From an uncultured Chthonomonas sp. (GTDB lineage: Bacteria > Armatimonadota > Chthonomonadetes > Chthonomonadales > Chthonomonadaceae), in contig CAIONQ010000024.1 of assembly GCA_903859705.1 (NCBI GenBank), forward strand, positions 1 through 64,000: a stretch of DNA of 64,000 nucleotides, written 5' to 3'. Each line of letters begins with the position of its first letter. The stretch's first letter is position 1. Both the position numbers and the translations under genes were made by a program. The notes below the pieces were generated by a model, which saw only the letters and a program-made list of their open reading frames with translations, made no database searches and was not told where the DNA came from. Positions 7,516 through 36,783 of this stretch are shown in pieces.

Positions 7516-7537
7516 GTTTATCTCCGAATTTTCAGCT

Positions 7538-9839: not shown

Positions 9840-10155
9840 GGGATAGTTCTGGCATGCCGGTCTCGCGGCGCAGAAGTACCTGAATATACAAACGGTGGCG
9901 ACGACAACTTCATCCCAGCAAGCGACTGCCAGCTTGTCGGTCCGGAGCATCCTACCCGTCGCCCCAATCGTGCCACGTTTGCAATAGATTCGGCACGTGC
10001 CACTTTGGTATAATGCTTTAATAATTGGGCACTTAGCCCCACTAGCGAAATGCTAGACGAGGGCCCACCGGCAACACTCAAAGGCTGGGTCATCCTGACA
10101 AAGCGCAACACGGCTGTAACGGAGTAGTAGAGTCTTATACTATTGAGTTAATTGG

Positions 10156-11004: not shown

Positions 11005-11179
11005 TATTCTGAGTACCGCAGTTTATTCAATCCTATCTACCAGAACAGCATCATGAATTCCAACAACGGACAGCCGGTCGTGAAATAGCCTTGGCACATA
11101 CATATTGACAGTAAAGAAAATCGGGGGATGTGCCTAACAAAAGCCTTAGTTGTCGACTCGGACTGCGTGCGAGTTCAGA

Positions 11180-11731
11180 TTATTTCAGCAAATCAAGCAA
11201 TCGGTTGACATAAGCGTGGGCGGAAGCAGAGAGATCATCGTACTCGTCTTTTGTCTCCTCCGCCCGCTTTCCGTACAGGAAGAACGCGGCCCGCGACGGT
11301 CCAATGCTATCAATCGTTTTGTAGGCTTGCTTTAGGAACTCAATAGCCTCCTTAGCGTCTTTGTCGTCCAGCATCGGTTGGAGTTCGGCGACTACCGAGT
11401 CCACTCCGCCGTCCAGGTTAACCAGAACATAATGCAGATCGAAAGCGTCTTTGGGTTTCTCGCGCTGGTGGATCGCCCGCGCCTTCAGTACGACGAATGA
11501 CGCAGGACCGCAGACCCAGATATACCGCTCTGCCCGTTCCCCGCGAATCGTTTGGCCCGAGATCAATATCCTTCGTCTGTCGCGCTCTACTAGCTGGAGA
11601 CCGTCCGCGATCAGGGCGGCGAAGTCCTTCTCAAGGTTCTGGACTCGTGTTCCAGGCGGTTGTTCAGGGCTGCGCGGAATCAGGAAATCGACCGTCACGA
11701 TGGCGCCTAGCGACGGGTCAGTACGCCTCAT
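11180..11731 (-). pseudogene. AbiEii-like nucleotidyltransferase, C-terminal part (frameshifted)
   Basis: The 183-residue frame matches the second half of AbiEii-type nucleotidyl transferase toxins as I know the family: VTVDFLIPRSPEQ, the DR..ISGQTI..ERAERYIWVCGPASFVVLKA block, KDAFDLHYVLVN and the helical tail. It is one base out of frame with 11718-11960, which encodes the start of the same protein. The stretch of about 25-30 residues that normally links the two halves is largely missing. The toxin gene therefore carries a frame-disrupting internal deletion. It lies immediately downstream of the AbiEi-like gene. Confidence 0.65.
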
Positions 11732-11960
11732 CGGTTAATACGGAAAGCTGTAGCCCCAGGTCCAGATCGGCGGTGCCCGGATGGGCTTCAACGCCTTCTG
11801 GCAGACAATCAGCCGGAACTAACAGAGAAGGCACGAGCCCGCCGATAAGTGTTAATTGCTCCATCCAATCGCCAAGTATAGAAGCGATGTGAAGCATCGC
11901 CTGTCGGACTCGTTCGTACGTCTCCGGCGAGTAATCCAGAATTGTCTTGCGTTCGTCCAT
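11718..11960 (-). pseudogene. AbiEii-like nucleotidyltransferase, N-terminal part
   Basis: These 80 residues contain LTLIGGLVPSLLV and HPGTADLDLGLQLSVL, the GG...D.D nucleotidyltransferase signature of AbiEii-type toxins. The frame stops with TGA directly after LTDEAY, where family members continue into RLRxxGF. The ATG at 11958-11960 overlaps the TAA stop of the AbiEi-like gene by one base (TAATG), showing translational coupling in the original operon. The product alone would keep two of the three expected metal-binding acidic residues and is probably inactive. Confidence 0.65.
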
Positions 11961-14615: not shown

Positions 14616-15383
14616 CTACGGGCGAGAGCGCCTGCGCCGTAATACCGTTCCAAAGCCAGCAACCGCTGCTGCAGCAAGGGCCATCGCTCCGGGTTCGGGC
14701 GTAATGGTAACGGGTGGAGCTGTGTATTCAAACATGCTAACGCCATCCAGTAGTGCAAATGGAGGTACGCCATCTGGTGTGCCAATGGCGAGGAATGAGA
14801 GCGTTTCCGAAGCGGCCGAGGCTGTGTACACAAACGATTGCTGCCGCCAGCCAGAGAAGCCGCCCGTAGGGTTGCTAACTATAGAAGTGAGTTGAGCATC
14901 ACTGCCGAGTGACACCTGAAACTGCTCGGTATTGTCGCCGGGTAAATCGTACTGTTGAGCGCCCGCCCAGTAGAAACTTACCTGGTAGGTTCGCCCCACA
15001 GTTAGCCCGCTGACAACCTGCTCTATGGCCCCAACCTCAAAGGCACCATCGGCGCCCACAAAGTTGCCCCCGGAAGGGCTGGCCGCCGTTAAGCCGTTGT
15101 TAGACCCATTTGCAGGGCCCCAGAGGATAACAGGGCCGTGGTATTCACTGCTATAGGCACCCGTGGTATCTGCAGTACCGGCGTTAAAGATGAAGTTGTA
15201 TCCGTGGGAAACCCACCCTGTTACATTAACATAGGGGTGTGCAGCGTCAAACTGCCCCGAGCTGTGCCCGGATGTAAGCTCGAAATCGCCGTTGACAATG
15301 AGGTCTGTTTGCGCGTACGCACCGCCCGATGTAAGCATCAGGGCCGCGAACGCTGCCCCGCAAGCAAACGCCTGTTTTATCAA
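14616..15383 (-). CDS. PEP-CTERM protein, tandem paralog 1 (DUF642-like)
   Basis: This 255-residue exported protein starts with TTG at 15381-15383, 10 bases after TAGGAGA. It has a signal peptide ending SGGAYAQ. A beta-sandwich resembling DUF642/choice-of-anchor domains follows: LIVNGDFE, GNFVGADGAFEVGAIEQVV, YQVSFYWAGAQQ, FSGWRQQSFVYTA, and GTPDGVPPFALLDGVSMF. The PEP-CTERM tail is TPEPGAMALAAAAVAGFGTV plus RRRRSRP. It is about 60-70 percent similar by eye to the next two genes. A surface carbohydrate-binding role is plausible but unproven. It has its own promoter and terminator. Confidence 0.85.
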   Translation of the reverse strand: MIKQAFACGAAFAALMLTSGGAYAQTDLIVNGDFELTSGHSSGQFDAAHPYVNVTGWVSHGYNFIFNAGTADTTGAYSSEYHGPVILWGPANGSNNGLTAASPSGGNFVGADGAFEVGAIEQVVSGLTVGRTYQVSFYWAGAQQYDLPGDNTEQFQVSLGSDAQLTSIVSNPTGGFSGWRQQSFVYTASAASETLSFLAIGTPDGVPPFALLDGVSMFEYTAPPVTITPEPGAMALAAAAVAGFGTVLRRRRSRP

Positions 15384-15893: not shown

Positions 15894-16655
15894 TTATTTT
15901 CTTGCGGCCCTGCGCCTTCGTACTACAGCGCCAGCAAACCCAACAAACCCTGCCGCTGCAAGCGCCATGGCGCCTGGCTCCGGGGTTACTTCCGAGAGAT
16001 CGTACATAGAAACGCCATCTATCAGCGCAAAAGGTGGAACACCGGAGGGCGTACCAATTGCCAGGAGGGAAAGCGTTTCTGTACCACCGGTTGCAATGTA
16101 ATCGAAGCTTTGCTCCGTCCATCCAGAGAATGCTTCGCTGGGGTTAGAGATTGTTGATGTTGTGTGAAACTGTGATCCCAGCGTTGCTTTGATCTTTTCA
16201 GTGGTATCGCCGGTGTAACCGTGCTGTTGCGCTGCAGCCCAGTAGAAGTTAAGCTGATACGTATGGCCAGCGTGCAGACCAGTAATTACTTGCGATATGG
16301 CACCCACCTGGTATGCGCCATCCATTCCCACAAAGTTGCCGCCGGTTGGGCTTGTTGCAGGCAACCCGTTGGCAGAGCCACTGTTAGGCCCCCAGAGGAT
16401 AAGCTGCTTGGTATTCTCAGAGCTGTATACGCCGGTGGTATCGGCGGAGCCAGGTGTGAACAAGAAGTTGTAGCCAGCAGAAGTCCACCCGGTTACGTTC
16501 ACATAAGGATAGTGGCTATCCCACTGACCAGAGGATTGAACAGTGGTCTGCTCAAAATCACCGTTGACGATCAGGTTAGTCTGAGCAAACACTGAGTTGC
16601 ACGAAAGAAGCATTAGCACAGGCATCGTGGCGCGTACAAGTGGCTGGAAATTCAA
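15894..16655 (-). CDS. PEP-CTERM protein, tandem paralog 2 (DUF642-like)
   Basis: The TTG at 16653-16655, 10 bases after GGGAG, gives a 253-residue protein that matches its neighbours in length. The longer open frame to 16763 adds sequence without a signal peptide character. The signal peptide ends in NSVFAQ. The domain repeats the landmarks of paralog 1: LIVNGDFEQT, GNFVGMDGAYQVGAISQVI, YQLNFYWAAAQQ, GTPSGVPPFALIDGVSMYD. The tail is TPEPGAMALAAAGFVGFAGA plus RRRRAARK. The three copies were probably made by tandem duplication. Confidence 0.85.
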   Translation of the reverse strand: MNFQPLVRATMPVLMLLSCNSVFAQTNLIVNGDFEQTTVQSSGQWDSHYPYVNVTGWTSAGYNFLFTPGSADTTGVYSSENTKQLILWGPNSGSANGLPATSPTGGNFVGMDGAYQVGAISQVITGLHAGHTYQLNFYWAAAQQHGYTGDTTEKIKATLGSQFHTTSTISNPSEAFSGWTEQSFDYIATGGTETLSLLAIGTPSGVPPFALIDGVSMYDLSEVTPEPGAMALAAAGFVGFAGAVVRRRRAARK

Positions 16656-16849
16656 GTAGTGTTTTCTCCCGCGGTAATCACCGCAAATCAGGCGGGGCAG
16701 TAAATAGTGGCATAGCGATCGCTGCAGGCGATGTCCGTAGCTTGTAACGAAAGCCAACCACACCTACTACGAGCGAGCGTACTAAATTATTGCCGGATTA
16801 TAACGTTTTTCTGGTGAGATGCATGGGAGTTGCACGATTGATGATCCTA

Positions 16850-16926: not shown

Positions 16927-17697
16927 TTACTTTGCTGCGAGGCGGCGGCGGCGAAGAGCCGCACCTGCAAAGCCTGCAAGGCCCGCGGCAGCCAGCGCCA
17001 TTGCGCCAGGCTCTGGAGTATCCGTGGGCGGAGGGGTGGATATATCGTAGAGAGTTACGCCATCCAACAGAGAGAACGGCGGCACGCCATTGGGAGTTCC
17101 GAGCGCGAGGAAAGCCAGCGTCTCCGAGGTAGAAGTGGCAGTGTACGTAAACGATTCTTGTTGCCAGCCAGAGAAGCCGTGGCTCGGATTGTTATACACC
17201 GACGTTAACTGTGTATCACCACCGAGGGACGCCTGCCACTGCTCTGTATTCGGCCCATCGTAACCTTGCTGCTGAGCTCCGGCCCAGTAGAATCCTAGTT
17301 GATAGGTGTGGCCAACGGTAAGGCCATTGATTGTCTGAGTAATAGACCCCTGCTGGAATGCGCCATCGGCGGCTACAAAGTTGCCACCTGTTGGGCTATT
17401 TGTTAGTCCGTTATTCACGCCATTGCCTGGCCCCCACAGCGTTAGCTCATTGTTATATTCTGAGCTGTGGGCACCTGTGGTATCCGCAGTATTAGGAGCG
17501 AAGATGAAATTGTAACCGTTGGAAATCCACCCGGTAACATTGACATATGGATGGTTAGAATCCCACTCGCCGGAGCTATGCCCGGTGGTGACTTCGAAGT
17601 CTCCGTTTTGAATCAGGTTGACCTGTGCGAATGAGGAATTTGATGCCAGCATCAATGCCCCAAGCGCCGCCCCGCAAGCGAATGCTTTTCTTAACAA
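16927..17697 (-). CDS. PEP-CTERM protein, tandem paralog 3 (DUF642-like)
   Basis: The TTG at 17695-17697 lies 9 bases after AGGAGG and gives 256 residues starting (M)LRKAFACGAALGALML, a signal peptide very like that of paralog 1. The domain has LIQNGDFEVT, GNFVAADGAFQQGSITQTI, YQLGFYWAGAQQQ, GTPNGVPPFSLLDGVTLYD. The sorting tail is TPEPGAMALAAAGLAGFAGA plus RRRRLAAK. All three paralogs use TTG starts at the same place relative to the signal peptide, so the weak start is conserved and may set expression level. Confidence 0.85.
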   Translation of the reverse strand: MLRKAFACGAALGALMLASNSSFAQVNLIQNGDFEVTTGHSSGEWDSNHPYVNVTGWISNGYNFIFAPNTADTTGAHSSEYNNELTLWGPGNGVNNGLTNSPTGGNFVAADGAFQQGSITQTINGLTVGHTYQLGFYWAGAQQQGYDGPNTEQWQASLGGDTQLTSVYNNPSHGFSGWQQESFTYTATSTSETLAFLALGTPNGVPPFSLLDGVTLYDISTPPPTDTPEPGAMALAAAGLAGFAGAALRRRRLAAK

Positions 17698-17824
17698 TAT
17701 TGTGTGCCTCCTGTGAAACAGGGACACATAGCGAATTGTGCCTCCGCAGAGATATCCGCAATGTGCCTCATTCTGCATAACCTAGCCAACACCCCTGAAG
17801 CGAATCAAAGGCGATAGGCCAATT

Positions 17825-19528: not shown

Positions 19529-20587
19529 ATGAAGCCGAATTACACTGCTCGAATATCTGCCGCACTGTTCCCGGCCGCAATTCTTCTGCTTTCTGGCTGC
19601 GCCCAGCGCACCGTAGTGGCGGCACCACCTATGAACAATGCCCAGTTGGCACCTGCGGTTCAGGTACAAGGACAATCTGGATCTGCGGCGCAGGTTTATG
19701 CCTGGCAGGATGTGCCCCAGGGTCAGGAGGTGCCGATTACTCGTGCAACCTTTGATCAGGGCGGATACCAGATTTTTGCTGCCAGCGGCGAAACTATTGT
19801 TGTGCCGTTTGTAAACCAGAACCTTTATGCTATGAAATTTGGCCGCTCTACACGCGGCGAGAGCTATTTTGTTAACCAGGGTGATGCCCCTACTCTTTAC
19901 CTGGCAAATGGTGGCTTTCTTGAAAATGCAGCGGCACAAAATGCCCGCTGGTACCCAATTCCTGAGAGTTATGGGTACACAAGGCCCATATATGTAACGG
20001 TGGCTCCTAGCTACAGCGAGTTTGCGGCCATGGGCTGGTACCCGGGCATGAATTACTACGGTGGCATGTGGGGATACTACCCACACAGCAGCTTTGTGTG
20101 GATGCCTGGCTTTTACATTGGTATTGGCGGATCACGATACACAACCTACACCAGTTATCACAGTTACTATATCCATACCCCTGGATACGTGCGTACTACG
20201 GTAGTTCACACGTATTACCCTGCTCGCGGAACAAATCGGTTTACAAGCAGAACCACTTTCCGCAGTGGCACTAACCGCTCGTTTAACAGTGGAACCCGCC
20301 GAACCTTTAACAGCACGTCAAGGCCATTCGGCGGCAATAGCTCCTCAAACTCTGGAAGTTTCTCCACTCGCCGCACCACCCCTTCTGGCGGTACGTTCGG
20401 CACGCGGCCATCTGGTGGATCTTTCGGAACACGCCCCGCGGGCGGCACATCTGGCACCAGGCCCTCTGGCGGTTCTTTCGGTACACGGCCTTCTGGCGGG
20501 GCCTTTAGTGGTGGTCGCTCTTCTGGTGGATCATTTGGAGGCGGTCGATCATCCGGGGGTGGCGGCAGCTTCGGTCGCCGGCGGTAA
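19529..20587 (+). CDS. Lipoprotein with glycine/serine-rich repeats
   Basis: This 352-residue lipoprotein has the lipobox LLLSGC near residue 23 (an upstream ATG at 19514 would add five residues). The middle part (about 60-230) is a soluble domain containing VPFVNQNLYAMKFGRSTRG and then a Tyr/Gly/Met-rich region (GWYPGMNYYGGMWGYYPHS). The last 120 residues are low-complexity, with a FGTRPSGGS-type unit repeated about five times and then GGRSSGGS units ending in GRRR. I do not recognise the family. It opens a set of five co-directional genes (to 23760) that also encodes a second glycine-rich protein and an M48 protease, which suggests a shared envelope function. Confidence 0.75.
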   Translation: MKPNYTARISAALFPAAILLLSGCAQRTVVAAPPMNNAQLAPAVQVQGQSGSAAQVYAWQDVPQGQEVPITRATFDQGGYQIFAASGETIVVPFVNQNLYAMKFGRSTRGESYFVNQGDAPTLYLANGGFLENAAAQNARWYPIPESYGYTRPIYVTVAPSYSEFAAMGWYPGMNYYGGMWGYYPHSSFVWMPGFYIGIGGSRYTTYTSYHSYYIHTPGYVRTTVVHTYYPARGTNRFTSRTTFRSGTNRSFNSGTRRTFNSTSRPFGGNSSSNSGSFSTRRTTPSGGTFGTRPSGGSFGTRPAGGTSGTRPSGGSFGTRPSGGAFSGGRSSGGSFGGGRSSGGGGSFGRRR

Positions 20588-20672
20588 TTTACGCAAGCAA
20601 TTTGTAACTTACATCAGGTGTGCCCATTTCTGGCGCACTTTGATCCGATTCAATTGAAGGGGTAATCACACC

Positions 20673-21119
20673 ATGAATAGCATGATTTTCCAAACAGGTG
20701 GAGATTGGGACAGCACTTCTCTGTTTAATAACGGCCAGGAAGTGATGGCGGCCCAGCTTTATGTTGAGTTGCATGCCGGCCGGGATGGCTGGGGAGACCC
20801 GGATAGGGGCGGGATATATGCCGGTGGAGATATTTCGGCATTTGTGCGCACCCAGGATAGCCCGGATGAGGAGTGGGGTATTTTCCCGGGGCGCCTGGAG
20901 CTCGATTTTCCGGGCCACACCCTCGTACTGGAGAACACGCATCCTGCATTTGATTTTGAATGTACGCGGCTTTTATATAATGGGCAGGATGTAACATCCA
21001 ATGTCGTGGACCTTGTTGTGAACATTGATGCCGATAACAACATCGTTCAGGCCTATATTACACTTTACAAACCGCACTGGCTTACGGCAGACGAAGTAGC
21101 TACGTATACGATCATATAG
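20673..21119 (+). CDS. Hypothetical protein, 148 residues
   Basis: GAAGGGG lies 10 bases before the ATG. The product is acidic, with no signal peptide or membrane helix. Notable segments are QTGGDWDSTSLFNNGQEV, HAGRDGWGDPDRGG and LLYNGQDVTSNVVDLVVNID. The repeated 'NGQ(D/E)V' phrase at both ends suggests an internal duplication of a small beta unit. Family not recognised. It lies between two genes for glycine-rich envelope proteins. Confidence 0.65.
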   Translation: MNSMIFQTGGDWDSTSLFNNGQEVMAAQLYVELHAGRDGWGDPDRGGIYAGGDISAFVRTQDSPDEEWGIFPGRLELDFPGHTLVLENTHPAFDFECTRLLYNGQDVTSNVVDLVVNIDADNNIVQAYITLYKPHWLTADEVATYTII

Positions 21120-21192
21120 GCTGGAGCAAGCAGTTAGCTTCTGCAGCAGAGGCATGCCCCCTTAGAGGGTGTGTTGCCTGGAGATTGTCGAA

Positions 21193-21825
21193 ATGAGCGA
21201 GAAGAATCGGATATCGGGCGGCGGCAGTACCGGCGTTCGCCTTGCAAAAGTGTTTGTTGTGGGGATGCTTGCTGCGTTGCTGGCATTTCCCATTGCAGAT
21301 GCCAGCGCACAACGGCGTGGTGGTGGCGGCGGTGGAGGATCATTTGGTAGATCTTCCGGAGGATTTGGTCGGTCAAGCGGAAGTTTCGGTCGATCCAACT
21401 CGGGCAGCTCGTTTGGTGGCGGCCAGGGGCGCTCAAGTAGTGGAACTGGCAGCGGGTCGTTCGGTCGATCTAACAGCAGTTCCTCCGGATCCTTTGGCAG
21501 AAGTGGAAACTTCGGATCGCGCAGCTATACAGGTTCGAGCTCCCGTTCTACCAGTACATATTCCTATGGTGGCCGCAACTACAGCGCACATTACTATGGC
21601 GGATACGGCGATTATTGGTACCACCCTGCGTGGTACTACTGGACTCCGTTTCATCCGGCGTTCTACTACAGCTCGCCTTACCTTGGTGCCGATAACGTCT
21701 ACTACCCAGGCGGGTTTAGCTTTGTCAGGCTAATTTTGGGACTTGCGGTATTCGCAGTAATTTTCTGGGTGTTTGTTAGGATCGTTTTCGGTGGAAAACG
21801 CGTACGGTATACTACATACAGCTAA
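21193..21825 (+). CDS. Glycine/serine-rich membrane protein
   Basis: The ATG at 21193 has GGAG nine bases upstream and gives 210 residues. It has a signal peptide or anchor (VFVVGMLAALLAFPIADASAQ), about 85 residues of low-complexity FGRSSGG/FGRSNSG repeats, an aromatic segment (YYGGYGDYWYHPAWYYWTPF), and a C-terminal membrane helix (LILGLAVFAVIFWVFVRIVF) ending in basic residues. The layout resembles glycine-rich TPM-domain-adjacent or surface proteins, but no family is clear. The repeats resemble those of the lipoprotein at 19529. Confidence 0.7.
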   Translation: MSEKNRISGGGSTGVRLAKVFVVGMLAALLAFPIADASAQRRGGGGGGGSFGRSSGGFGRSSGSFGRSNSGSSFGGGQGRSSSGTGSGSFGRSNSSSSGSFGRSGNFGSRSYTGSSSRSTSTYSYGGRNYSAHYYGGYGDYWYHPAWYYWTPFHPAFYYSSPYLGADNVYYPGGFSFVRLILGLAVFAVIFWVFVRIVFGGKRVRYTTYS

Positions 21826-21849
21826 AGTATGTGATAGGACGGAGAGATC

Positions 21850-22389
21850 ATGTTCGGTAAATCGAACACTAATGCACCAAAACCAGGCAATGCACAATCA
21901 CCTCAAGTTGAGCGTGCAGCAGCTGTTGAGATGGCGCGTATAGCCGGCGGCGGGTTAGTGCAGATGATTGTTACGGATACCTATCCGGTGCAGTTCTATC
22001 TGTTCTTGAACGATAAGTTGGTGCCGGATATCGATGTAGAAAGTCTCTCCGTTAATATCGTAGCACCGATAACCCAGACAGATTCGATGATAGTGCGAGC
22101 AACACTATCCAGTTACATAACCAATGTTGCAGGGGAGCGCACTCTTGAGAACAGGGAACTATTCCCCTGCACGCTGGAATTAATTGCCATGGACAGGCGT
22201 ATTGCCGTATCCTGCACTCGCCCCGACTCTACCGAGGGCCTGTGGGTGAATGTTGGGCTGCGGCCAGATGGAGATAGCCGGGAACTTCAGGGATTGAAGG
22301 AGTTTCGCCTGCTTGTGACGCATGACCTGATTGATGCACGCATCACCTGGGTTGATGGCGAGAGTGAGAGCCTGTTTCCCCAAGAGTAA
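21850..22389 (+). CDS. Hypothetical protein, 179 residues
   Basis: The ATG has GGAG about 6 bases upstream and is 24 bases after the previous stop, so it belongs to the same operon. It has no signal peptide. The body is beta-rich (GLVQMIVTDTYPVQFYLFLN, MIVRATLSSYITNV, RRIAVSCTRP) and looks like a small globular cytoplasmic protein. Family not recognised. Confidence 0.65.
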   Translation: MFGKSNTNAPKPGNAQSPQVERAAAVEMARIAGGGLVQMIVTDTYPVQFYLFLNDKLVPDIDVESLSVNIVAPITQTDSMIVRATLSSYITNVAGERTLENRELFPCTLELIAMDRRIAVSCTRPDSTEGLWVNVGLRPDGDSRELQGLKEFRLLVTHDLIDARITWVDGESESLFPQE

Positions 22390-22503
22390 CAGGTTACGAA
22401 GTTGTGCGCAGGTATGTCGGGCCAGCTACCTGCATACGCCCTCCGGCTTACCCGGCGAGGTGCCTTGAAATAGGAACTTCGGACAGAACATGGAGTCGAA
22501 CTG

Positions 22504-23760
22504 ATGACGGACATTCAGCACCGCATTTTGCGCCGCTGCCCATTGCACGCTGTAGTGATAATGGCATTCCTTGCCGGGATACAGCCAGCACATGCGCAGA
22601 CTCCGCCTGCCCCTCCACCCGCAAATCCTCAGGCTGCCGCCACTGCAAATGCCGTTAAAGACAAGATTACACCCTTAACTGAGGATAACGAAGTTAAGCT
22701 TGGCCGGCAGAATGCAGAAGAAAACGACAAACATATACAGTTTGTAACAGATGCTGCTCTTGTGCAACGCGTAAATCGCATCGGCAAAGAGATTGCAGAT
22801 GTTGCCAATACAGTAGCAATCAAACCATTGTGGGGTTACCCGCAACTAAAAAAGTTTGATTACTCTTTTAAGATTGTAAATGAGAAGGATGTAAACGCCT
22901 ACTCATTGCCCGGCGGATTTATCTACGTAAACAAGGGCCTTATAGATTATGTGAGATCGGATGACGAACTTGCCGGCGTACTTGCCCATGAGATTTCGCA
23001 TGCCGATCATCACCACATGATGAAGCTCATGAAGGAGCAAGGCAAAATACAGAACATTCTCTTGCCGGCTCTTATTGGCCTTGTTGTGGCTACTAAAGCA
23101 AGCTCCTCTGATATGGTGAATGCGCTCAACGCTGGCTACCTGTACACCATTGCCAAAACCAATACCTATGGTGTGGAAGCAGAAAAAGACGCCGATCATT
23201 CCGGCATGCTGTTAATGACGCATACCAAGTACAACCCCGTTGGGCTATACAGTTTCATGCTTCGCATGGCGGCAGATGAAGACCATAAGAACTTTGTGGA
23301 TATGGGAATTCTGCAAACTCACCCGCCGGCCGCAGAACGCGTTAATTCTGCCCGTGATTTGCTGGAAGAACTTAAAATTCCGATAGAGCTCTCGAAGGTA
23401 GATCCCACACTGCTGATCAGCATTGCAGCGGTAAAGGCAACGAAAGATGCTCCAGAAATGGTAGAGTTGAGCATCAGGGGTATACCTATTTGCCGTGTTG
23501 TTGGGATCGCACCGAAGACTGCAACAGACCGAGCAAACGACATTGCAAAGCAGCTGAACAAACGCATTGATGACGAATTTCAGGCAAACGAAGTGCGCTT
23601 CTTGAAGGACAAGAACAAAGTACTACTGCGGTATGTAACTGTGTTAATCGATGCGGATGCAACTGCACAGGGCAAAACGCTTGAGGAACTGAGCAAGACG
23701 ATGGCCACTGCCATTTTGCTAATTAATCAGAAGAAGCAGCAGGAAGCCCCACACCAGTAA
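22504..23760 (+). CDS. Secreted M48-family zinc metalloprotease
   Basis: This 418-residue protein has a signal peptide ending AHAQ near residue 32 and a proline-rich linker. The M48 peptidase domain contains LPGGFIYVNKGLIDYV, DDELAGVLAHEISHADHH (HExxH near residue 162) and the third zinc ligand in VEAEKDADHSGM near residue 226. QTHPPAAERV is also family-typical (compare BepA/YfgC and Oma1-like proteases). The last 110 residues are a separate domain after the peptidase core. Related periplasmic M48 enzymes handle outer-membrane protein quality control. Here it closes an operon of envelope proteins, so those may be substrates; that is inference. A 28-bp palindromic terminator follows. Confidence 0.85.
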   Translation: MTDIQHRILRRCPLHAVVIMAFLAGIQPAHAQTPPAPPPANPQAAATANAVKDKITPLTEDNEVKLGRQNAEENDKHIQFVTDAALVQRVNRIGKEIADVANTVAIKPLWGYPQLKKFDYSFKIVNEKDVNAYSLPGGFIYVNKGLIDYVRSDDELAGVLAHEISHADHHHMMKLMKEQGKIQNILLPALIGLVVATKASSSDMVNALNAGYLYTIAKTNTYGVEAEKDADHSGMLLMTHTKYNPVGLYSFMLRMAADEDHKNFVDMGILQTHPPAAERVNSARDLLEELKIPIELSKVDPTLLISIAAVKATKDAPEMVELSIRGIPICRVVGIAPKTATDRANDIAKQLNKRIDDEFQANEVRFLKDKNKVLLRYVTVLIDADATAQGKTLEELSKTMATAILLINQKKQQEAPHQ

Positions 23761-23787: not shown

Positions 23788-23815
23788 AAGGGCGAGGCCA
23801 ATTGGCCTCGCCCTT
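23788..23815. terminator. Bidirectional terminator, 28-bp perfect palindrome
   Basis: AAGGGCGAGGCCAA is followed directly by its exact complement. It lies 28 bases past the M48 gene and 27 bases past the convergent galactosidase gene, with A/T tracts on both sides. Confidence 0.8.
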
Positions 23816-23841: not shown

Positions 23842-26181
23842 TTATGGCTGGAAGATGATCTTCCAGGCCACCTTGCGCCCAGTTGGAGAAGCAATATGCA
23901 CCCTAAGCAAATCGCCCTCATGCTCGCTGGTTACTGAAACGCCAGCGGCCACGTCCTCCGCCGAAACCGATGCAGCAAGTAGTGCGCGCTTTGTTGCCAC
24001 GACTCGAAGCTCATAATTATCCGCCCCAACTACTTCGCTCACTCCTGAAAGTGTGGAAGACCCAGGGTTCCAATCCTCGCCAGTGAGCTCGAGAATCCCC
24101 TGAGATACATGGCGGGACGTGCTGATAACAAACGGATGTGGTAAGGATGGCCGAATAGCCAGAACTCTGCAAGCCTCACCGGGAACGCTTAGAGCTAGTT
24201 CCCCTTTTGCGGGCGAGAGCAGACGTTTCGCCCAGAAATCGTACACGGAGTACTCACGCGCCGCCGGAATTCCCAGTTTCTTGAACGCAACACGGTACTC
24301 TGATGGCTTTTCAGACCAGTTAAACAGGCCAACAACATCTCTGCGGGTGTGGCCAGCGCGCGTGTCTGAAACGGTCCACATCCGCGGTGGCCAACTCTCA
24401 AAGATATCTACCGGGCGTGCAGTAACGCCGTGGCCTGGAATACAGCGTTTGATGAGCTCCAGGCGGTTCTCGGGCAGGCCAGGCAGCCAATCGCTCAGCG
24501 ATACCATCTGCCCTGAGAGGGCGTTCCAGGATGCAATGCACTCCGCGCTGGCGAGCGGGATTGAATCGCGAACGTACATTGGATCTGGATCACTCCACCA
24601 AATGCGCCCATTCAGGTGGTAGTTGCGAGATCCAAAATCCGGAGAAACCAGCCAGTTCTTGAAGTTGCCCCCGTTATCTGGCCCCATCCGCATAGCATCC
24701 ACCAGGCCAAATACACCGGCATAACTGCGCATGTTCTGAGGTGCACAGCAGCCAAGGATGAAAGTAGTGGGCCCGGCAGCATTCCGGATCATACGAAGCC
24801 CATCGCGAAACACTTCGATGTGCGGCTTAGTAGGAACAGAAAAATATCCATCGCCCAGGTTGTCTTCTTTCCAAGCATCGTTTACATACTGGGGATGTAC
24901 ACCAACACCCGTTGAAAGCCCATCCAGTTTGAGATAGCCATATCCCCAGGCGCTAACAGACTGCGCTATTTCACCGCGAACAAAGTCTATTGCGCCAGGC
25001 TGCGTCATATCAAGCGCCGTGCCGCCCCATGCAGTATCAAAAGGCTTGCCCTCGGCGGTCTTCACAAACCAATCTTGATGTTTGGCAAAAAACGCATCGT
25101 TGTAACTGCCGCCAAACGGTAAGATCCAGAGTCCCGGCCGAAGCCCATCGGCGGCTATCTTATCTGCTGTAGCCTTCATGCCGTCTCGATATGGGCCATT
25201 TGGATCATACTGGCTGAAGTTTTTTCGCGGGCCATTGCCATGCGGATCGCCCATTTGCCAGCCATCATCGATCTGAATTGTTCCAAGTCCGAATGGCTTC
25301 AGAGTTCTTGCCGCAAATTCGCTGAGCTCAGCCAGTGCCTTTTGATCGCTGGAACCGCCGTGCACGTTGTCGTACCAGGTGCAATAAACAATGGGCATAG
25401 CGGGCAGTTTGTGATGCAGTTTGCGTGCAACGGCATCTGCCCAGGCTTCCATACCCAGCCGAGCATCGGCAAACCAACCAATTGCGAAGAGCTCCGACTG
25501 TACAGTGGAGGCTGCAGGAACTATTAGCCGACCATATTCGAGGCGAGCCGATACCGTTGCTCTATGATCATTGCTGCCCGGGAACAGCACACCGTTACCT
25601 TTTTCATGCGTTAAAAAGCCACCCACCACGCCATCGCCCGAGTGTGCATTTGCCAGCGCAGCCCACGCATAACTACCAACGCCATCGGATGCCGGTTTCA
25701 GCCCGCCGGTTCCAAGCGATATTGCGTTTGCGGGCAATACTGGAAGAGAGGCCGTAAGCACAGGGAGTTTGTTTACTTCGCGAGCAGTGGAAGAGGAATT
25801 CTTCAGCAACAGGCTGGTTACAGCGAACGGAAGCGATGCGTACAGGGCTACTGTTTGAGAATCCCCATTGGCCGCCGTTACTTTAACGGCAGTATTCTGG
25901 CCATAATCGGCATCTGTGCCGTACAGCAGTTCCGATCTTACTATGGGGTTTTGCAGCGCAAAAACCGCATGGGCTACTGCTTTACCAGAAACAAGAAGGT
26001 CAAAGCCCGGCGCATCTGAATGCAGGTGCGTTTGAATTGAAAGGCCGCGCTGGCGTATGGTGATATCGCGCGCTGTTGGCCCCGCAGAACCAGCACCTTC
26101 AGATCCCAGTACCATTACCACACCTCCCAACCCTAAAACTATAAGCTTTGCCAGCAGCTGTATACCAGTACCGGATATCAT
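23842..26181 (-). CDS. Secreted GH36/GH27-like alpha-galactosidase
   Basis: This 779-residue exported protein has an N-terminal hydrophobic segment (LLAKLIVLGLGGVVMVLG) and a beta-sandwich up to about residue 250. A clan GH-D (beta/alpha)8 barrel follows. TIQIDDGWQMGDPHG opens the barrel, YGYLKLDGLSTG carries the K-x-D nucleophile motif near residue 420, and DAMRMGPDNGG matches the R-x-x-x-D acid/base motif near residue 500. A C-terminal beta domain follows (VVGLFNWSEKPSEYRV, EYSVYDFWAKRLL). It probably releases terminal alpha-galactosyl or related sugars outside the cytoplasm. Confidence 0.8.
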   Translation of the reverse strand: MISGTGIQLLAKLIVLGLGGVVMVLGSEGAGSAGPTARDITIRQRGLSIQTHLHSDAPGFDLLVSGKAVAHAVFALQNPIVRSELLYGTDADYGQNTAVKVTAANGDSQTVALYASLPFAVTSLLLKNSSSTAREVNKLPVLTASLPVLPANAISLGTGGLKPASDGVGSYAWAALANAHSGDGVVGGFLTHEKGNGVLFPGSNDHRATVSARLEYGRLIVPAASTVQSELFAIGWFADARLGMEAWADAVARKLHHKLPAMPIVYCTWYDNVHGGSSDQKALAELSEFAARTLKPFGLGTIQIDDGWQMGDPHGNGPRKNFSQYDPNGPYRDGMKATADKIAADGLRPGLWILPFGGSYNDAFFAKHQDWFVKTAEGKPFDTAWGGTALDMTQPGAIDFVRGEIAQSVSAWGYGYLKLDGLSTGVGVHPQYVNDAWKEDNLGDGYFSVPTKPHIEVFRDGLRMIRNAAGPTTFILGCCAPQNMRSYAGVFGLVDAMRMGPDNGGNFKNWLVSPDFGSRNYHLNGRIWWSDPDPMYVRDSIPLASAECIASWNALSGQMVSLSDWLPGLPENRLELIKRCIPGHGVTARPVDIFESWPPRMWTVSDTRAGHTRRDVVGLFNWSEKPSEYRVAFKKLGIPAAREYSVYDFWAKRLLSPAKGELALSVPGEACRVLAIRPSLPHPFVISTSRHVSQGILELTGEDWNPGSSTLSGVSEVVGADNYELRVVATKRALLAASVSAEDVAAGVSVTSEHEGDLLRVHIASPTGRKVAWKIIFQP

Positions 26182-26262
26182 AAGAAGTATCGCCTTTCAA
26201 CATATATCAGCAAATAGATTACATTTGAACGGGCGAAATTACTGCGCGGACACAGCTGCAAA

Positions 26263-27375
26263 TTACGTTTGTGATCCATTATCGAGATTAGTGTACAGTC
26301 GCAAGTTTCCAGCGATTTGGCGAGTTTTGAATGCCATGGCATGTCTTACCACTTTAGATAGGTATTGCTTCTCAGTAAAAGCACATAACGTAACTGCTGC
26401 TGACCGGATTGAAAAGTTCGCCTCACTTGATATACAGTAAACAGGCTCCCATTCTTCCGGTCGAAATTTCTGTTTGAAGCGTTCCAGTCCTGCAAAGTTA
26501 TATGGCATGTATTTGGTTTGGGCAAAGCGAAAAGCCGCTTGAACCCAGGGTGGATTGGCTGGTGTGTTAGATAGTTTTGAAGTGGACAGCGGTGAGAAAC
26601 CGAGTGTAAACATATTGGATCCCGCGCTTTGTGCAGCGGTTATAGCATGATGTACCAATAACTCTACGCTACCGTTGGGCGCAGTATGTCTCCTGGGGAA
26701 TAGTTCTGACATCCAGCCCTTGCGCGCCGGTATTGGTATCATCAATAGAAATGCTACAACCTGCTCGCCTTGCAGAGCCACAAATATCCGTTTGTCCCTT
26801 AATTCTGAAATGCCTGCTGTACCGGAAACAAAAGCCATTGGTGCCATTCGATGTCTGCTGCGCCAATCGCGATGGCACTCCCACAGCGAATTGCTGTGCA
26901 TCGCGCGTTCTGGTGTCCATTCACACACAGTTACGCCACTGTTTCGGGCCCTGCGCAGTTGCGCCTTTAGCCCACGGTTTCCATTTAGATTGTGGCACCA
27001 ACGATCTGGATTCCAGATAGGAAGTGCACCACATGCAATAGCGCTATGTGTGCCTTTTGTTACAAGTTGAGTACACAGGGGTTGCATGGCACCGAAGTAA
27101 CAAACCCGGCGTCCCATACTTGCGGAGATTTGTTCCCATTCCTGTGCTACATGCCCGAGGTGCTCAGGTCCACAGATTGGAGCGCCAGCGACTACATGTG
27201 TTCTTGCGCGTGTAACATACCCAACGGCTGCATCTCCACATGGAGCCAACCAGTGTAGTATGCCTGGGCTGTCAATCTGACAAGAGCATACATTCCAACC
27301 GTGGCGTGCAATTACTCTGCGTACTTGCTCCCTATCTGGTTGTATCAATGCTTGTTGTGATGGACCGCCTTTCAT
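26263..27375 (-). CDS. DUF2156 / LPG-synthase-C-like acyltransferase
   Basis: This 370-residue soluble protein resembles the DUF2156 GNAT-fold domain of bifunctional lysylphosphatidylglycerol synthases without the membrane part. Landmarks are LHWLAPCGDAAVGYVTRART, GAPICGPEHL, QLRRARNSGVTVCEWT, and GSVELLVHHAITAAQSAGSNMFTLGFSPLS. YNFAGLERFKQKFRPEEWEPVYCI is the most typical family stretch. Its ATG overlaps the stop of the ClC gene in ATGA, so translation is coupled. It may transfer an aminoacyl or acyl group to a lipid or peptide; the donor is unknown. Confidence 0.75.
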   Translation of the reverse strand: MKGGPSQQALIQPDREQVRRVIARHGWNVCSCQIDSPGILHWLAPCGDAAVGYVTRARTHVVAGAPICGPEHLGHVAQEWEQISASMGRRVCYFGAMQPLCTQLVTKGTHSAIACGALPIWNPDRWCHNLNGNRGLKAQLRRARNSGVTVCEWTPERAMHSNSLWECHRDWRSRHRMAPMAFVSGTAGISELRDKRIFVALQGEQVVAFLLMIPIPARKGWMSELFPRRHTAPNGSVELLVHHAITAAQSAGSNMFTLGFSPLSTSKLSNTPANPPWVQAAFRFAQTKYMPYNFAGLERFKQKFRPEEWEPVYCISSEANFSIRSAAVTLCAFTEKQYLSKVVRHAMAFKTRQIAGNLRLYTNLDNGSQT

Positions 27376-28958
27376 ATTGCAGTGTCACATCCGGCTTTTA
27401 GCGCCTCTACTCCGCCAACAACCTCGGGGGATATGAGGGCGGTTAGTTGCAGGTGACGCACCAGACGCGTCGTCGCAGTGGGCACCCAACTGTTTGCTTC
27501 TTGGTCCTCGCACTTAAGTAAAATGCACCCGGGCGGCAAGCCAAGATCCTGAACAAGGCACCCATCGAAGGGAGCACCGGGCATAACTTCCAGGTGCAAT
27601 ACAAATGGCTCAGGAGAGCTCGTTTCAATGCCGTTGTTTCGTAGGTCACGTTCGAGCAGGTTTTCATAAATCGGCATTTCGCCCAGTAATTCTGCCACTG
27701 CATAGGCGCAAAAACAGACCATAAGCAGGGGAAGCATAAGTGAGTAGCTTCCTGTCATCTCCACAATAAGCACGATGCCCGTAAGTGGTGCTCTCACAAT
27801 GGCGGTAAACATAGCAGCCATACCGGCAACAGCAAATGCAGCGGGCTGAGGTACCACGCTTGGCCATGCATTGTGTGCAGCCAATCCTACAGCGAGGCCT
27901 GTAAGTGCCCCCATGCCAAGCAATGGAGCAAATATCCCGCCAGGCGCGCCGGTTGCATAAGAGAAAACAGAGAGCCCTATTCTGGCAAGCAGCAACATAG
28001 GAATGATTGTGAAAGCCATATTTGCGGATAGCACGCGCTCTGCAAGGTGATGCCCGCCACCTATTAGGTCAGGATGAAAGTACCCGGCGATACCTGCAGC
28101 CGCACCCATAAAGGCAGCGTATGCTATTTTCGCATTCCGTGGAGTTTTTTGGAGCAGGTTTAGCCCCACAATAATCGATCGGCAGTAACCAACCCCTATA
28201 ACGCCTGTAATGGCACCAAGCAGAATAAACAGTGGAATGCTCTGCATGGGAGGTGCGACGCAGGCAGGAACATGAAAAACAGGTAATTGCCCTGAGGCAA
28301 ACCGTGCAACGATATCTGCTACCGTTGCTGCCACAAATGCCGATCCAAATACTGCCGGTCTGAAGTCTCGTTGAACCTCTTCTAAAACAAACACGAGCCC
28401 AGAAAGAGGCGCATTGAAGGCGGCCGCCAGGCCAGCACCAGCACCGGCCGCTATCAACACCATCCGGTCTGGCTCCGTAACCTTTAGCCAGCGCGAAATT
28501 GCATCTCCAACGGCGCCACCCATCTGAACGGTTGGCCCTTCCCTTCCAAGTACCAGCCCGCTGGAAAGGGAGGCAGCCCCACCAAGAAATTTGACCGCAA
28601 TTAGCGGCTTCCACCTTATAGCGCGGTATCGGTGGAGGACAGCCTCGAGGTGCGGGATACCGCTGCCAGCAGCATCTGGCGAAAACTTCACAACCAGAAA
28701 CACTGCAAGTGCGGCCAGGCACATAGAGTAGCAAACTGGAATGAGCCCGCCCGCCCCACCCATCTGGTGAGCGGTTGTGCAAATACGCAGCCTCAGGTTA
28801 TCACCACTGGCAAGCACAGCCCTAAATAGAACGGCCATGAGGCCGCTAACAAGCCCTACCAGCGCAGCACGCGGAAGGAGGCGTCGGCGCTGCTGCCGGT
28901 AGTACAGGTACTCTTGCAATTCTGATTGCGCTACAGACGTGGTTGCAGGTGATGTCAT
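27372..28958 (-). CDS. ClC-family chloride channel/antiporter
   Basis: This 528-residue membrane protein contains the three ClC selectivity motifs: GSGIPHLE near residue 98, GREGPTVQMGG near 137, and GAPGGIFAPLLGMGAL near 347 (GxFxP). The proton-glutamate of GREGP is retained, consistent with H+/Cl- exchange as well as channel activity. The C-terminal 75 residues after the last helix look like a regulatory cytoplasmic domain (FVLHLEVMPGAPFDGCLVQDL to LVRHLQLTALISPE, TrkA-C-like). Start and stop overlap the neighbouring genes by four bases each, forming an ArsR-ClC-DUF2156 operon. Confidence 0.9.
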   Translation of the reverse strand: MTSPATTSVAQSELQEYLYYRQQRRRLLPRAALVGLVSGLMAVLFRAVLASGDNLRLRICTTAHQMGGAGGLIPVCYSMCLAALAVFLVVKFSPDAAGSGIPHLEAVLHRYRAIRWKPLIAVKFLGGAASLSSGLVLGREGPTVQMGGAVGDAISRWLKVTEPDRMVLIAAGAGAGLAAAFNAPLSGLVFVLEEVQRDFRPAVFGSAFVAATVADIVARFASGQLPVFHVPACVAPPMQSIPLFILLGAITGVIGVGYCRSIIVGLNLLQKTPRNAKIAYAAFMGAAAGIAGYFHPDLIGGGHHLAERVLSANMAFTIIPMLLLARIGLSVFSYATGAPGGIFAPLLGMGALTGLAVGLAAHNAWPSVVPQPAAFAVAGMAAMFTAIVRAPLTGIVLIVEMTGSYSLMLPLLMVCFCAYAVAELLGEMPIYENLLERDLRNNGIETSSPEPFVLHLEVMPGAPFDGCLVQDLGLPPGCILLKCEDQEANSWVPTATTRLVRHLQLTALISPEVVGGVEALKAGCDTAI

Positions 28959-29311
28959 TCCGCATCAACGGCTTCCGATTGCTCAACCAACTGCACTTCA
29001 CGCTCCGCTTCTGGATCACCATACAGTGCGTGAATGGCACAAAACTCGTCAATCATGGTCAATATTCTTCCTATTCGTGGGCCCCGCACCCCGTAAACAC
29101 GCAAGTTTCCCTGTGGTTCAACAGCAAGCAGGCCAGATTTAACAAGCACCGCAAGGTTCTGAGAGGTAGCCGATTGACCAAGATCTAGCCGTTTACAGAT
29201 CTCGTTCACGCTGAGCGGCTGCTCGCACAGGAGCTCTGTAATTCTCAGGCGGGTTGGGTTAGAGAGTGATGCGAACAGCGCCGAAGCGCGCGCGATAACT
29301 GCTTGATTCAT
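28955..29311 (-). CDS. ArsR-family winged helix repressor
   Basis: This 118-residue regulator has the standard ArsR fold: ALFASLSNPTRLRITELLCEQ, then SVNEICKRLDLGQSATSQNLAVLVKSGLLAVEPQGNLRVYGV. The recognition helix is SATSQNLAVL. The metal motif ELCVCDL is not present; LCEQPLSVNEI stands in its place, so a metal sensor is unlikely. An inverted repeat overlaps its own promoter. It is the first gene of the ArsR-ClC-DUF2156 operon and probably controls it. Confidence 0.85.
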   Translation of the reverse strand: MNQAVIARASALFASLSNPTRLRITELLCEQPLSVNEICKRLDLGQSATSQNLAVLVKSGLLAVEPQGNLRVYGVRGPRIGRILTMIDEFCAIHALYGDPEAEREVQLVEQSEAVDAE

Positions 29312-29347
29312 TAGTGCTGCACCTGCCCATCAACTATTAGCAGTTTG

Positions 29348-29392
29348 TAATATTAGATACTGGTAATATATCTTACGAACAGGTCCCGGCAA
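29348..29392 (-). promoter_or_regulatory. ArsR operon promoter with overlapping inverted repeat
   Basis: On the minus strand, TTGCCG (29387-29392) and TATATT (29365-29370) are separated by 16 bases. Arms ATATTA (29350-29355) and TAATAT (29364-29369) form an inverted repeat across the -10. Binding of the repressor there would block its own transcription. Confidence 0.6.
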
Positions 29393-29633
29393 TTTGCTTC
29401 AAACATTCAACAGTGCAATATTAACACACCCGGCATACCGGTCACGATGCAGTCACGATAATTGTATCTATCATATTTTGTTAGCGTAACACAAGCATTG
29501 ATCTTGTGACGCGATTACTGCAGCCTCACAATCTGCAATCTGGATCATTCAGATTGAAGGCTTCAGCACAAAACGGCAGAAGCGCTCTGGTTGGCAGCTT
29601 TTGCAAAGATTACGTATTATGCGGAGGATCACC
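29393..29633. other. Intergenic region between ArsR operon and PEP-CTERM gene
   Basis: Divergent promoters must lie here. The + strand gene has GGAGG six bases before its ATG at 29634. AATCTG words recur around 29530-29560. No gene is seen. Confidence 0.4.
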
Positions 29634-29813
29634 ATGATCGGATCTCGTGCCAGATCTGGCGGCTATGTTGCCGCAGCCATTACTGCAGTATTATCGTTTG
29701 CTATGCCTGCTAATTCTCAGATGACCCTAACTTCTGATGGTCAGGCCCTGTTTAACCTTACCCAGTTTGCAGACGGGTTTCCCCCTTTTCCGGAGTTGGG
29801 CCGCTCGGTTTGA
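29634..29813 (+). CDS. PEP-CTERM protein, 5' part (frame-interrupted)
   Basis: The ATG at 29634 has GGAGG six bases upstream. The fragment contains a signal peptide (GYVAAAITAVLSFAMPANSQ) and TLTSDGQALFNLTQFADGFPPF, then ends at TGA (29811-29813). Sliding back one base at CCCTTTT (29783-29789) gives FPPFSGVGPLGLTATGGKV and joins the frame of 29810-30634 perfectly. The full product would be about 333 residues. See the 3' entry. Confidence 0.65.
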   Translation: MIGSRARSGGYVAAAITAVLSFAMPANSQMTLTSDGQALFNLTQFADGFPPFPELGRSV

Positions 29814-30634
29814 CCGCCACTGGTGGCAAAGTGTTCGTTTCAGACATTACGAGTGGTACACTCTCGATTTTCAATTCGGATACGGACGGCCAGCATTACA
29901 ATTCCGCTACAAATGTAAGTATGGGCGTGTTTGGCCTCGCAACTTCAGGCGGTAAAGTTTTCGCAGCGATGCCCTCAGGCGGAGGATACCGTGTTGCGCA
30001 ATTAAATTCGTCTGGAGCCGTAACAAATAGCTACTCAAACGGTGCACTTTGGTATGCACTGGCTATAAGCAATGCTCCTGGAAACTCGCTCCTGGTGGCA
30101 TCTGGTGCCAACATTTATTCTATTGCTAACGACTTGACGGATGCAAGCTTCCACCAGGTATTGGACCTGAGTGGGCACAGTGTTGATGGCCTTACCACGG
30201 CTGGTAACGTTGTTTATGTAGCAGTCGATGGCAATAGAATTGAAGGCTTTAACATATCCAACGGTTACTCAAAGGTATTTGATTCAGGATTAATGGATGA
30301 TGGCCCAGATGGGGCCACTGCTGGTTTCGGATCCCTCGCTGGTAAGCTGTTTGTCAACACAAATGGTGGCAATGTATGGGAAATTGATACAAGTACGCAG
30401 GCAAGGACCCTGATTGCATCTGGTGGATCACGTGGCGACCTGATTGGGGTTGATTATAATGACGGTTCACTATTGCTCACCCAAAGCGACTCGGTGTTGA
30501 GGCTTTCTCCGTTCAGCGGTACTTTTGCTGATCCTCAGTCCGAAACTCCAGAGCCTGGAGCCACCGCTACTCTCGCAGGGTTTGCGATAATAGGGCTGCT
30601 AGCGTACCGCAGACGCCGCACCCTTAACCCATAG
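29810..30634 (+). CDS. PEP-CTERM beta-propeller protein, 3' part
   Basis: This 274-residue frame has no credible start of its own: the nominal TTG lies inside a conserved strand. It encodes propeller-type repeats (GGKVFVSDITSGTLSIFNSD, GNVVYVAVDGNRIEGFNI, GKLFVNTNGGNVWEIDT) and ends with a PEP-CTERM tail (TPEPGATATLAGFAIIGLLA plus RRRR). The signal peptide is supplied by the 29634-29813 frame. A -1 ribosomal frameshift, a one-base deletion in the C5T4 tract, or a sequencing error would each explain the break. Organisation matches the NHL-type PEP-CTERM gene at 3622. Confidence 0.7.
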   Translation: MTATGGKVFVSDITSGTLSIFNSDTDGQHYNSATNVSMGVFGLATSGGKVFAAMPSGGGYRVAQLNSSGAVTNSYSNGALWYALAISNAPGNSLLVASGANIYSIANDLTDASFHQVLDLSGHSVDGLTTAGNVVYVAVDGNRIEGFNISNGYSKVFDSGLMDDGPDGATAGFGSLAGKLFVNTNGGNVWEIDTSTQARTLIASGGSRGDLIGVDYNDGSLLLTQSDSVLRLSPFSGTFADPQSETPEPGATATLAGFAIIGLLAYRRRRTLNP

Positions 30635-30660
30635 AGATATTCTAGTTTAGTATGCAGTTG

Positions 30661-30692
30661 TAGCCCCTGGTGAGCAAACTCACCAGGGGCTA
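30661..30692 (+). terminator. Rho-independent terminator of PEP-CTERM gene
   Basis: Perfect 14-bp arms TAGCCCCTGGTGAG and CTCACCAGGGGCTA around CAAA, followed by TTTGTCTTTCC. Confidence 0.85.
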
Positions 30693-30795
30693 TTTGTCTT
30701 TCCTCACTTAGATGGAATACAAAGAGGAGTTCTCCTGACCAGTTGGTGGTTGCACTCATCCAGCATCAATGTTATTTTAAGCCACCATAAGGCGA

Positions 30796-31158
30796 CTACC
30801 GGTGGTCATCATGGTCACGACGGTTGTCCTGATCTCTATCTCGGTCACGGCAATGCTCACGTTCCCTATCGCGGACTCTGTCCCGGTCACTAATATTATC
30901 ATGATCGCGATCGTGATCCCTGTCTCGGTAATTAGTTTCCCATTTTTGGACTACCCTGCCCTGCACATATCCATGGCTCTGTTCATGGTTTACCGGTGCA
31001 ACCCGCTCTACCCGGCTGTTCCCACGATATTGTCCACTATCATCGCCATGCCTTTCATCGGCCATTGCTGAGCTACCAGCCAGGAGCCAGCAGACGGTGG
31101 CTCCTATCGCAAATGCTGAAACACTGTTTGCGATTATGTGGTTAATTGCAGCTTTCAT
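30796..31158 (-). CDS. Secreted Arg/Asp-repeat protein
   Basis: This 120-residue exported protein has a signal peptide (residues 1-33, ending SSAMA). A hydrophilic middle follows, then a C-terminal tail made almost entirely of RD/DRDHDR/RDRER dipeptides and histidine. Such alternating-charge tails bind metals or polyanions, or remain disordered; nothing more specific can be said. The family is not recognised. The start is followed by an ordinary signal sequence and is preceded by GGGAGAT. Confidence 0.65.
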   Translation of the reverse strand: MKAAINHIIANSVSAFAIGATVCWLLAGSSAMADERHGDDSGQYRGNSRVERVAPVNHEQSHGYVQGRVVQKWETNYRDRDHDRDHDNISDRDRVRDREREHCRDRDRDQDNRRDHDDHR

Positions 31159-31505
31159 CTTCGTATCTCCCTTCAGTGATGCTGCGTATTACCGCACAGC
31201 ATTCTTCATTAACTCCGGCCAGTTTCAGGCTTGAATACAATGCTATGCGGTTATGTATGGTTCGACGCGGTGCATTGCTGATTGTTCACCCATATTAAGT
31301 ATCTGTACACACTCTCACTATATGGCTGTTAGCCGTTGCACACATGTAGTTATTGCGCCGGAACAATCAAGCATACCGTTGCGTCTGCCGTGTGAACGAC
31401 AGCCTCAATGCGTTGTATTGCGGAGTCGAAATAATCCCAAACCATTGATTACGCGGCACATTTGTATGCCCTTTGGCGAGCCGGGATCAATAAGGAATGA
31501 ACTCC
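31159..31505. other. Intergenic region upstream of efflux operon
   Basis: Divergent promoters for the RD-repeat gene and the efflux operon must lie here. No gene, repeat or clear promoter is seen. Confidence 0.35.
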
Positions 31506-34552: not shown

Positions 34553-34601
34553 GACAAAGAAACATAGCCGCTATGCGCGTCAGATTGTCGCGCTGCACTA
34601 T
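34536..34601 (+). repeat. Short direct repeat at the permease 3' end
   Basis: The 14 bases GCGCTGCACTATGA at the end of the permease gene (about 34536-34550) occur again at about 34588-34602. The duplicated stretch lies in the 98-base gap before the ATPase gene and suggests a small local duplication. Confidence 0.5.
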
Positions 34602-34650
34602 GAATTGGCGAAACAAGAACTGCATTGATAACAAGAAACGATAACATCAA

Positions 34651-35394: not shown

Positions 35395-35506
35395 GAGGGA
35401 TTTACCGAGCCCTTTACGCCTGTATTCCGGGTGCACACAGCGAATCTGTTGCGTGTTTTCGTGCAATCCGGTTGCCTGCTGTTATTTTCAGTGTAGAATT
35501 GCTGTT

Positions 35507-35842: not shown

Positions 35843-35920
35843 CTGCTGACGAGAACTCGTTATGATTTACTTGCATCCTACGCAAATGATGGAGAGCTGC
35901 TATGTACGTGGCCATGCCCG

Positions 35921-36511: not shown

Positions 36512-36783
36512 CCTCGTATAGCATCCAAAAGGATGTACGCATTGCTTAGCTGCGACCTGATACCAATTGCAATTATCTTAATTTTATAAAGTTTCATGCG
36601 AGCCCGTCGTTGCATACACGGGTGGTTGGGTACTTTTCATTTAACGTTCAAACGCCAGAGAGCGAACATCTCAGCAAATAATTCGGAGGTATGTGTGCGT
36701 GTTGTATACTATAGGGGCTCACTTTTTGTCTTACATTGGTAGTACAAGAGGAGTACAAAACCCTACATTCGGAGTTATCGGTT

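Follow-up and report, generated by a model that had tools for sequence, protein, structure and literature searches.

What joins five genes that run in one direction on a contig of an uncultured Chthonomonas sp. (Armatimonadota; assembly GCA_903859705.1, contig CAIONQ010000024.1)? They occupy positions 19,529 to 23,760 of the stretch analysed here, the first 64,000 nucleotides of that contig, which we call the window. On the plus strand they encode a lipoprotein (open reading frame 1, ORF1; 19529..20587), a small protein predicted to be all-beta (ORF2; 20673..21119), a single-pass membrane protein (ORF3; 21193..21825), a second predicted beta protein (ORF4; 21850..22389), and an M48 metalloprotease (22504..23760). 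An earlier note, made from the letters alone, had taken them for an envelope operon. The comparisons described below identify them as a real conserved unit, found so far only in Armatimonadota and representing a genuine unknown at the level of the phylum, which probably helps to build or maintain the cell envelope.

Gene order and distribution

The earlier note had named scattering of the orthologs in relatives as the observation that would speak against a unit, and what is seen in relatives is a kept order. These relatives, in named genomes, belong to the Chthonomonadaceae and to other Armatimonadota. Within the family (17 genomes), ORF2, ORF4 and an M48 protease are present in all 13 high-quality genomes. 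Besides the window, seven other genomes (loci L065–L071) carry ORF2-ORF3-ORF4-M48 as an uninterrupted, co-oriented block, with gaps mostly below 140 bases. The ORF4-M48 end is also kept in L074 and L076, on contigs or loci without ORF2, so that both genes are contiguous in 10 of the 15 genomes holding them. The genes 3' of the protease vary by genus (alaS, rpoB or pilin-like). Exceptions to the order are genome G008, where the protease lies elsewhere, the genus g2, where the genes before ORF4 encode a STAS-Usp protein and a permease, and a genome that we take to be Chthonomonas calidirosea, where the genes are scattered. This species scatters genes that are operonic elsewhere (PMC4959169). Among the g2 loci, ORF4 adjoins a STAS-Usp fusion protein in L080 (2086-5572), L082 and L083, and in L080 the permease that precedes is an amino acid permease.

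ORF1 is the least constant part of the module. Its homologs adjoin ORF2 in L072, L127, L128, L132, L133 and L243 (genome G008 and the families f8 and f28). In L065 (G005), a genome of the same genus, a single DUF3352 gene (9989-11911, minus strand) separates ORF1 from ORF2. Other Chthonomonadaceae have, in the slot of ORF1, an exported protein that is unrelated to it and has an N-terminus rich in Gly or Pro; in one case this protein is weakly DUF4440-like.

A profile search of 291 Armatimonadota genomes for ORF1, ORF2, the ORF3 C-terminus and ORF4 matched ORF2 in 37 genomes, ORF4 in 27, the ORF3 C-terminus in 26, and ORF1 in 22. ORF2, the hub of the module, is found in 25 of the 26 genomes with ORF3 and in 25 of the 27 with ORF4, the genomes that break this rule (G004 and G014) being 64% and 73% complete; the association with ORF1 is looser (14 of 22). 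Fisher tests of co-occurrence gave values of 1e-24 and below, but the genomes are related and the family counts therefore weigh more: ORF2 occurs in f1, f8, f9, f15, f28 and f30, ORF3 in f1, f15 and f30 plus one f9 genome, and ORF4 in f1, f8, f9, f28 and f30. A genome presumed to be that of Fimbriimonas ginsengisoli holds an ORF2-ORF3 pair. A composition control relied on a criterion independent of homology, in which a protein counts as strongly Gly/Ser-rich when a 60-residue stretch contains at least 60% G+S. Among 475 ORFs of at least 120 residues in 40 loci, 23 were strongly Gly/Ser-rich, and 22 of these were ORF1, ORF3 or an upstream partner of the module, which places the link of ORF2 to Gly/Ser-rich exported proteins far above background. 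Because of the co-occurrence counts and this control, the core of the module is read as ORF2 together with either of the Gly/Ser-rich exported proteins, ORF3 or ORF1; ORF4 is often present as well. A contig scan beyond the phylum set, which rests on two short patterns and leaves absence elsewhere unproven, returned no locus for ORF2 alone and 21 loci for the alignment, every phylum named in their titles being Armatimonadota.

In the window, the genes are separated by 85, 73, 24 and 114 bases; the short gaps of the earlier note (24-114 bases as measured here) were thus recovered, together with its gene order, lipoprotein signal, Gly/Ser repeats and M48 protease. Operon status is predicted from these gaps and from the kept gene order; a promoter scan at the locus gave scores below chance, and a ribosome-binding site (GGAG) precedes the ATG of ORF3 at 21193 by nine bases. 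The single terminator proposed for the end of the operon corresponds to a strong hairpin at 23788..23815 (-28.5 kcal/mol, z -5.35), located between convergent genes. Since its T-run is better suited to termination of the convergent gene on the minus strand, the hairpin is probably a two-way terminator. Further downstream, alaS lies at 36736, whereas alaS and a phosphatase-like gene directly follow the protease in L065 and L066. Because of this 13 kb displacement, the block at 23842-36735, from an alpha-galactosidase to an ABC transporter, looks inserted or rearranged.

Predicted features of the five proteins

ORF1 carries a lipobox (LLLSGC), a conserved aromatic domain of about 180 residues, and a Gly/Ser/Thr/Arg-rich tail that contains FG and ends in GRRR, its C-terminal half being rich in G, S, T, R and F. 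The repeats are visible in the DNA as near-tandem units of 27 or 54 bp that match at 65-74%. ORF1 and five of its relatives matched no Pfam family at E<=1, and a sequence search of the PDB gave no match for ORF1.

According to its hydropathy, ORF3 comprises a signal-like N-terminus, a Gly/Ser/FG-rich low-complexity stretch (61% G+S), an aromatic motif (WYYWTPFHPAFYY) and, close to the C-terminus, a membrane helix, followed by a Gly/Arg linker and a basic tail, VRYTTYS. Its repeats are irregular, unlike the near-tandem ones of ORF1, and the likeness between both proteins lies in composition and short motifs. The FG(R/T)xSGG-type units that they had been said to share are common to both in the looser form SFGR/SFGT plus SGG, but the literal unit occurs just once, in ORF3. 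The tail of ORF3, with the pattern (V/I)(R/K)YTxY or a near variant, is kept in Chthonomonadaceae, in f30 and in part of f15, always at the extreme C-terminus after the membrane helix. Because the N-terminal part is predicted to be periplasmic, the tail is placed in the cytoplasm, the compartment predicted for ORF2 and ORF4. Tail-less ORF3 proteins (L138–L143) pair with ORF2 proteins that are altered in a GRDxxGxPxxGGI loop of the alignment. Genome G001 carries two tandem ORF3 genes (L237, 1-1281).

ORF2 (148 residues) yields an all-beta AlphaFold2 model with a mean predicted local distance difference test score (pLDDT) of 91.4, and ORF4 (179 residues) consists of a disordered N-terminus and an all-beta domain (mean pLDDT 85.0). 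Neither has a signal peptide or a membrane segment by hydropathy, and both are probably cytoplasmic, so the label of envelope operon fits three of the five products but not these two. Searches of ORF1 to ORF4 against Pfam, NCBIfam, PHROGs and PADLOC found nothing above chance, none of the five proteins matched the PADLOC anti-phage defence profiles at E<=0.1, and ORF2, ORF4 and the C-terminal domain of the protease had no match by sequence in the PDB. Comparison of the ORF2 and ORF4 models with the PDB and with viral folds gave no convincing match (against the PDB, best Foldseek E of 0.36 for ORF2 and 0.22 for ORF4, and VIA-align Z of at most 2.6 and 3.2, respectively), which does not show a new fold. 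A profile comparison between both proteins (P 5.3e-6; P 0.0017 in a different register under other settings) suggests that they may be distant paralogs, with a register that is unstable between settings. An internal duplication of ORF2, suspected from its model, found no support in profile comparison, and DUF4178 was rejected as an identity for ORF2 (P 0.65) and ORF4 (P 0.34), neither of which matches it in Pfam.

The protease is a clear member of peptidase family M48, with a Pfam match at E 1.5e-27 and an intact HExxH...E zinc site (HEISH at residue 162, EAEKD at 225), and has a signal-like N-terminus. Its relatives in the PDB are 3c37 and BepA (5e-15 for BepA). The last 130 residues or so (window 23359-23757) match no Pfam family. 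In a sample of 101 genomes drawn from across Armatimonadota, a profile of this domain had matches in 60, several of these matches having an in-frame HExxH upstream. The second match in the window's own genome (L244, 2099-3451) lies in an MscS-type channel, recognized by its Pfam MS_channel domains, and corresponds to the periplasmic N-terminus of that protein; a profile comparison of the two domains confirmed the match (P 1.1e-8 over 80 columns). This shared domain, outside all Pfam families, is of interest independently of the module and may extend beyond Armatimonadota. In the seven other genomes with the contiguous block, the protease is 37-66% identical to that of the window. The earlier note counted it as part of the module, which holds for most of the Chthonomonadaceae, as described above, but not for the other families mapped; the protease is thus a family-level addition that joined the module only in Chthonomonadaceae and has widespread relatives without it. 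In the genome taken as C. calidirosea, ORF3 is convergent with the gene for a different, lipoprotein-type M48 protease and overlaps it by four bases (L236, 4616-5991), an arrangement that may be due to chance.

Other exported proteins are encoded elsewhere in the window. Three adjoining paralogous PEP-CTERM-like secreted proteins are encoded on the minus strand (14616-15383, 15894-16763 and 16927-17778), and a Gly-rich secreted protein, which contains a long GGPGGFGGPGQ repeat, is encoded at 42759-44192, distant from the five genes.

A tentative mechanism and its rivals

The best clue to the mechanism is the ORF3 tail. In the account that we tentatively put forward as a possible one, the module would be an envelope scaffold at the inner membrane, with a possible role in upkeep of the envelope or in stress. 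ORF3 would span this membrane, with the Gly/Ser/FG-rich part facing the periplasm and the short basic tail facing the cytoplasm, where ORF2 and ORF4 would dock, most likely at the conserved (V/I)(R/K)YTxY sequence. ORF1, with a low-complexity tail of similar type in the envelope, might associate weakly with ORF3 there, and in Chthonomonadaceae the added protease would turn over or check ORF1, ORF3 or other envelope proteins. The persistence of the tail across Chthonomonadaceae, f15 and f30 is consistent with this scaffold, as are the confident all-beta models of the signal-less ORF2 and ORF4, the contiguous four-gene block, the co-occurrence of ORF3 and ORF4 with ORF2, the composition control, and the domain that the protease shares with the MscS-type channel. 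Several observations weigh against it. In f8, f9 and f28, ORF2 and ORF4 occur without ORF3, so tail docking cannot be the sole role of ORF2 there, and at the six loci L138–L143 ORF2 still stands beside a tail-less ORF3. The co-variation of the ORF2 loop with the tail is a weak clue, as the tree allows a single event. Finally, no mapped locus outside Chthonomonadaceae has an M48 gene in the module operon, and inside the family the protease is separate from ORF4 in 5 of 15 genomes.

The families with ORF1 and no ORF3 are better explained if ORF2 and ORF4 act in the cytosol as chaperones for export, keeping the sticky, low-complexity ORF1 and ORF3 in solution until these are exported and having no part in the finished structure. 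This closest rival, which we regard as somewhat doubtful, agrees with the lack of a signal peptide in ORF2 and with its position beside either of two unrelated Gly/Ser-rich exported types, since a shared property of the clients fits this better than one tail does. However, it leaves the conserved ORF3 tail unaccounted for, ORF2-ORF4 occur without a Gly/Ser-rich neighbor in L129 and L130 (with ORF1 on another contig), and Foldseek and profile searches found no likeness to a known chaperone. It is unlikely that the module senses or repairs envelope damage in the manner of the PspA partner operons (PMC11237479) without direct use of PspA. The same types of parts occupy analogous places in both, the protease has a domain in common with a mechanosensitive channel, and in L143 the genes for PspA and a vWA protein immediately precede that of an ORF2 relative; that adjacency, however, is seen in one genome only, the PspA of the window's genome is on another contig, ORF2 and ORF4 are unlike DUF4178, and no member of the partner families was detected.

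The earlier note had pictured the repeat proteins as forming a matrix, taken here as extracellular or periplasmic, with the protease as its processing enzyme. In its favor, low-complexity exported proteins rich in G, S, F and R, with related short motifs, adjoin a periplasmic protease. This reading is very unlikely, mainly because the protease is absent from most of the module's range: the repeat proteins of f8, f15, f28 and f30 keep their order with ORF2 and have no M48, the C-terminal domain of the protease is common in proteins outside the module, several of which have HExxH, and the literal shared unit occurs once. The genes might also be chance neighbors with no common function, as their separation in genus g2 and in the presumed C. 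calidirosea genome would allow, but an order kept across deep divergence while the flanking genes change, and co-occurrence in several families, make this extremely improbable. A bolder form of the scaffold account, which we consider quite unlikely, would be a phylum-specific system of a new type, in which cytosolic beta proteins of a new fold control a Gly/Ser/FG-rich envelope layer through the tail of a single-pass protein, and a protease with an MscS domain trims this layer under membrane tension.

Comparison with known systems

As the earlier note had stated, no described system with this content was found in the literature, nor any paper on this gene cluster. At least three of the module families are without a Pfam entry, and the two beta proteins modelled with confidence are without a convincing match in the PDB. 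Armatimonadota have few cultured members and a little-studied envelope, for which the module offers a good handle, and the close species that could be worked with are C. calidirosea and F. ginsengisoli, the presumed sources of the genomes with the scattered genes and with the ORF2-ORF3 pair, respectively.

Individual proteins resemble known ones in part. The layout of ORF1 resembles that of the DUF1190 lipoproteins YgiB and YjfM, in which an aromatic central region is combined with a tail rich in Gly, Ser and Thr, although ORF1 and its five relatives lack a Pfam match. The protease shares a signal peptide and the M48 catalytic domain with BepA, but its score against the NCBIfam model M48_BAM_BepA (107.8 bits against a cut-off of 570, confined to residues 58-285) places it outside that family, the rest of BepA, including its TPR repeats, being unmatched and replaced by the domain shared with the MscS-type channel. 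The catalytic domain is also shared with the M48 lipoprotein LoiP, but the score of 51 bits lies below the cut-off of 365, the lipobox is absent, and an additional domain is present at the C-terminus.

The PspA partner operons encode a lipoprotein, a membrane protein and an intracellular beta-rich DUF4178 protein, one group having a metallopeptidase (PMC11237479). The parts of one group are a spermine synthase, DUF350, DUF4178 and a novel lipoprotein, and the metallopeptidase goes with PspA-PspAA-PspAB (PMC11237479). A PspA link was dropped as the main explanation of the module, the adjacency being found in L143 only (4664-8228), where the genes that follow those for the vWA protein and PspA encode a divergent ORF2 and an ORF3-like protein without the tail. 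None of the five genes encodes PspA, whose sole match in the genome is on contig C77, and the module does not belong to the PspA partner operons: it differs from them in having no PspA, no DUF350 and no polyamine enzyme, and in the unlikeness of ORF2 and ORF4 to DUF4178. What both have in common is a lipoprotein, a membrane protein and an intracellular beta-rich protein, with a membrane metallopeptidase in one group of those operons.

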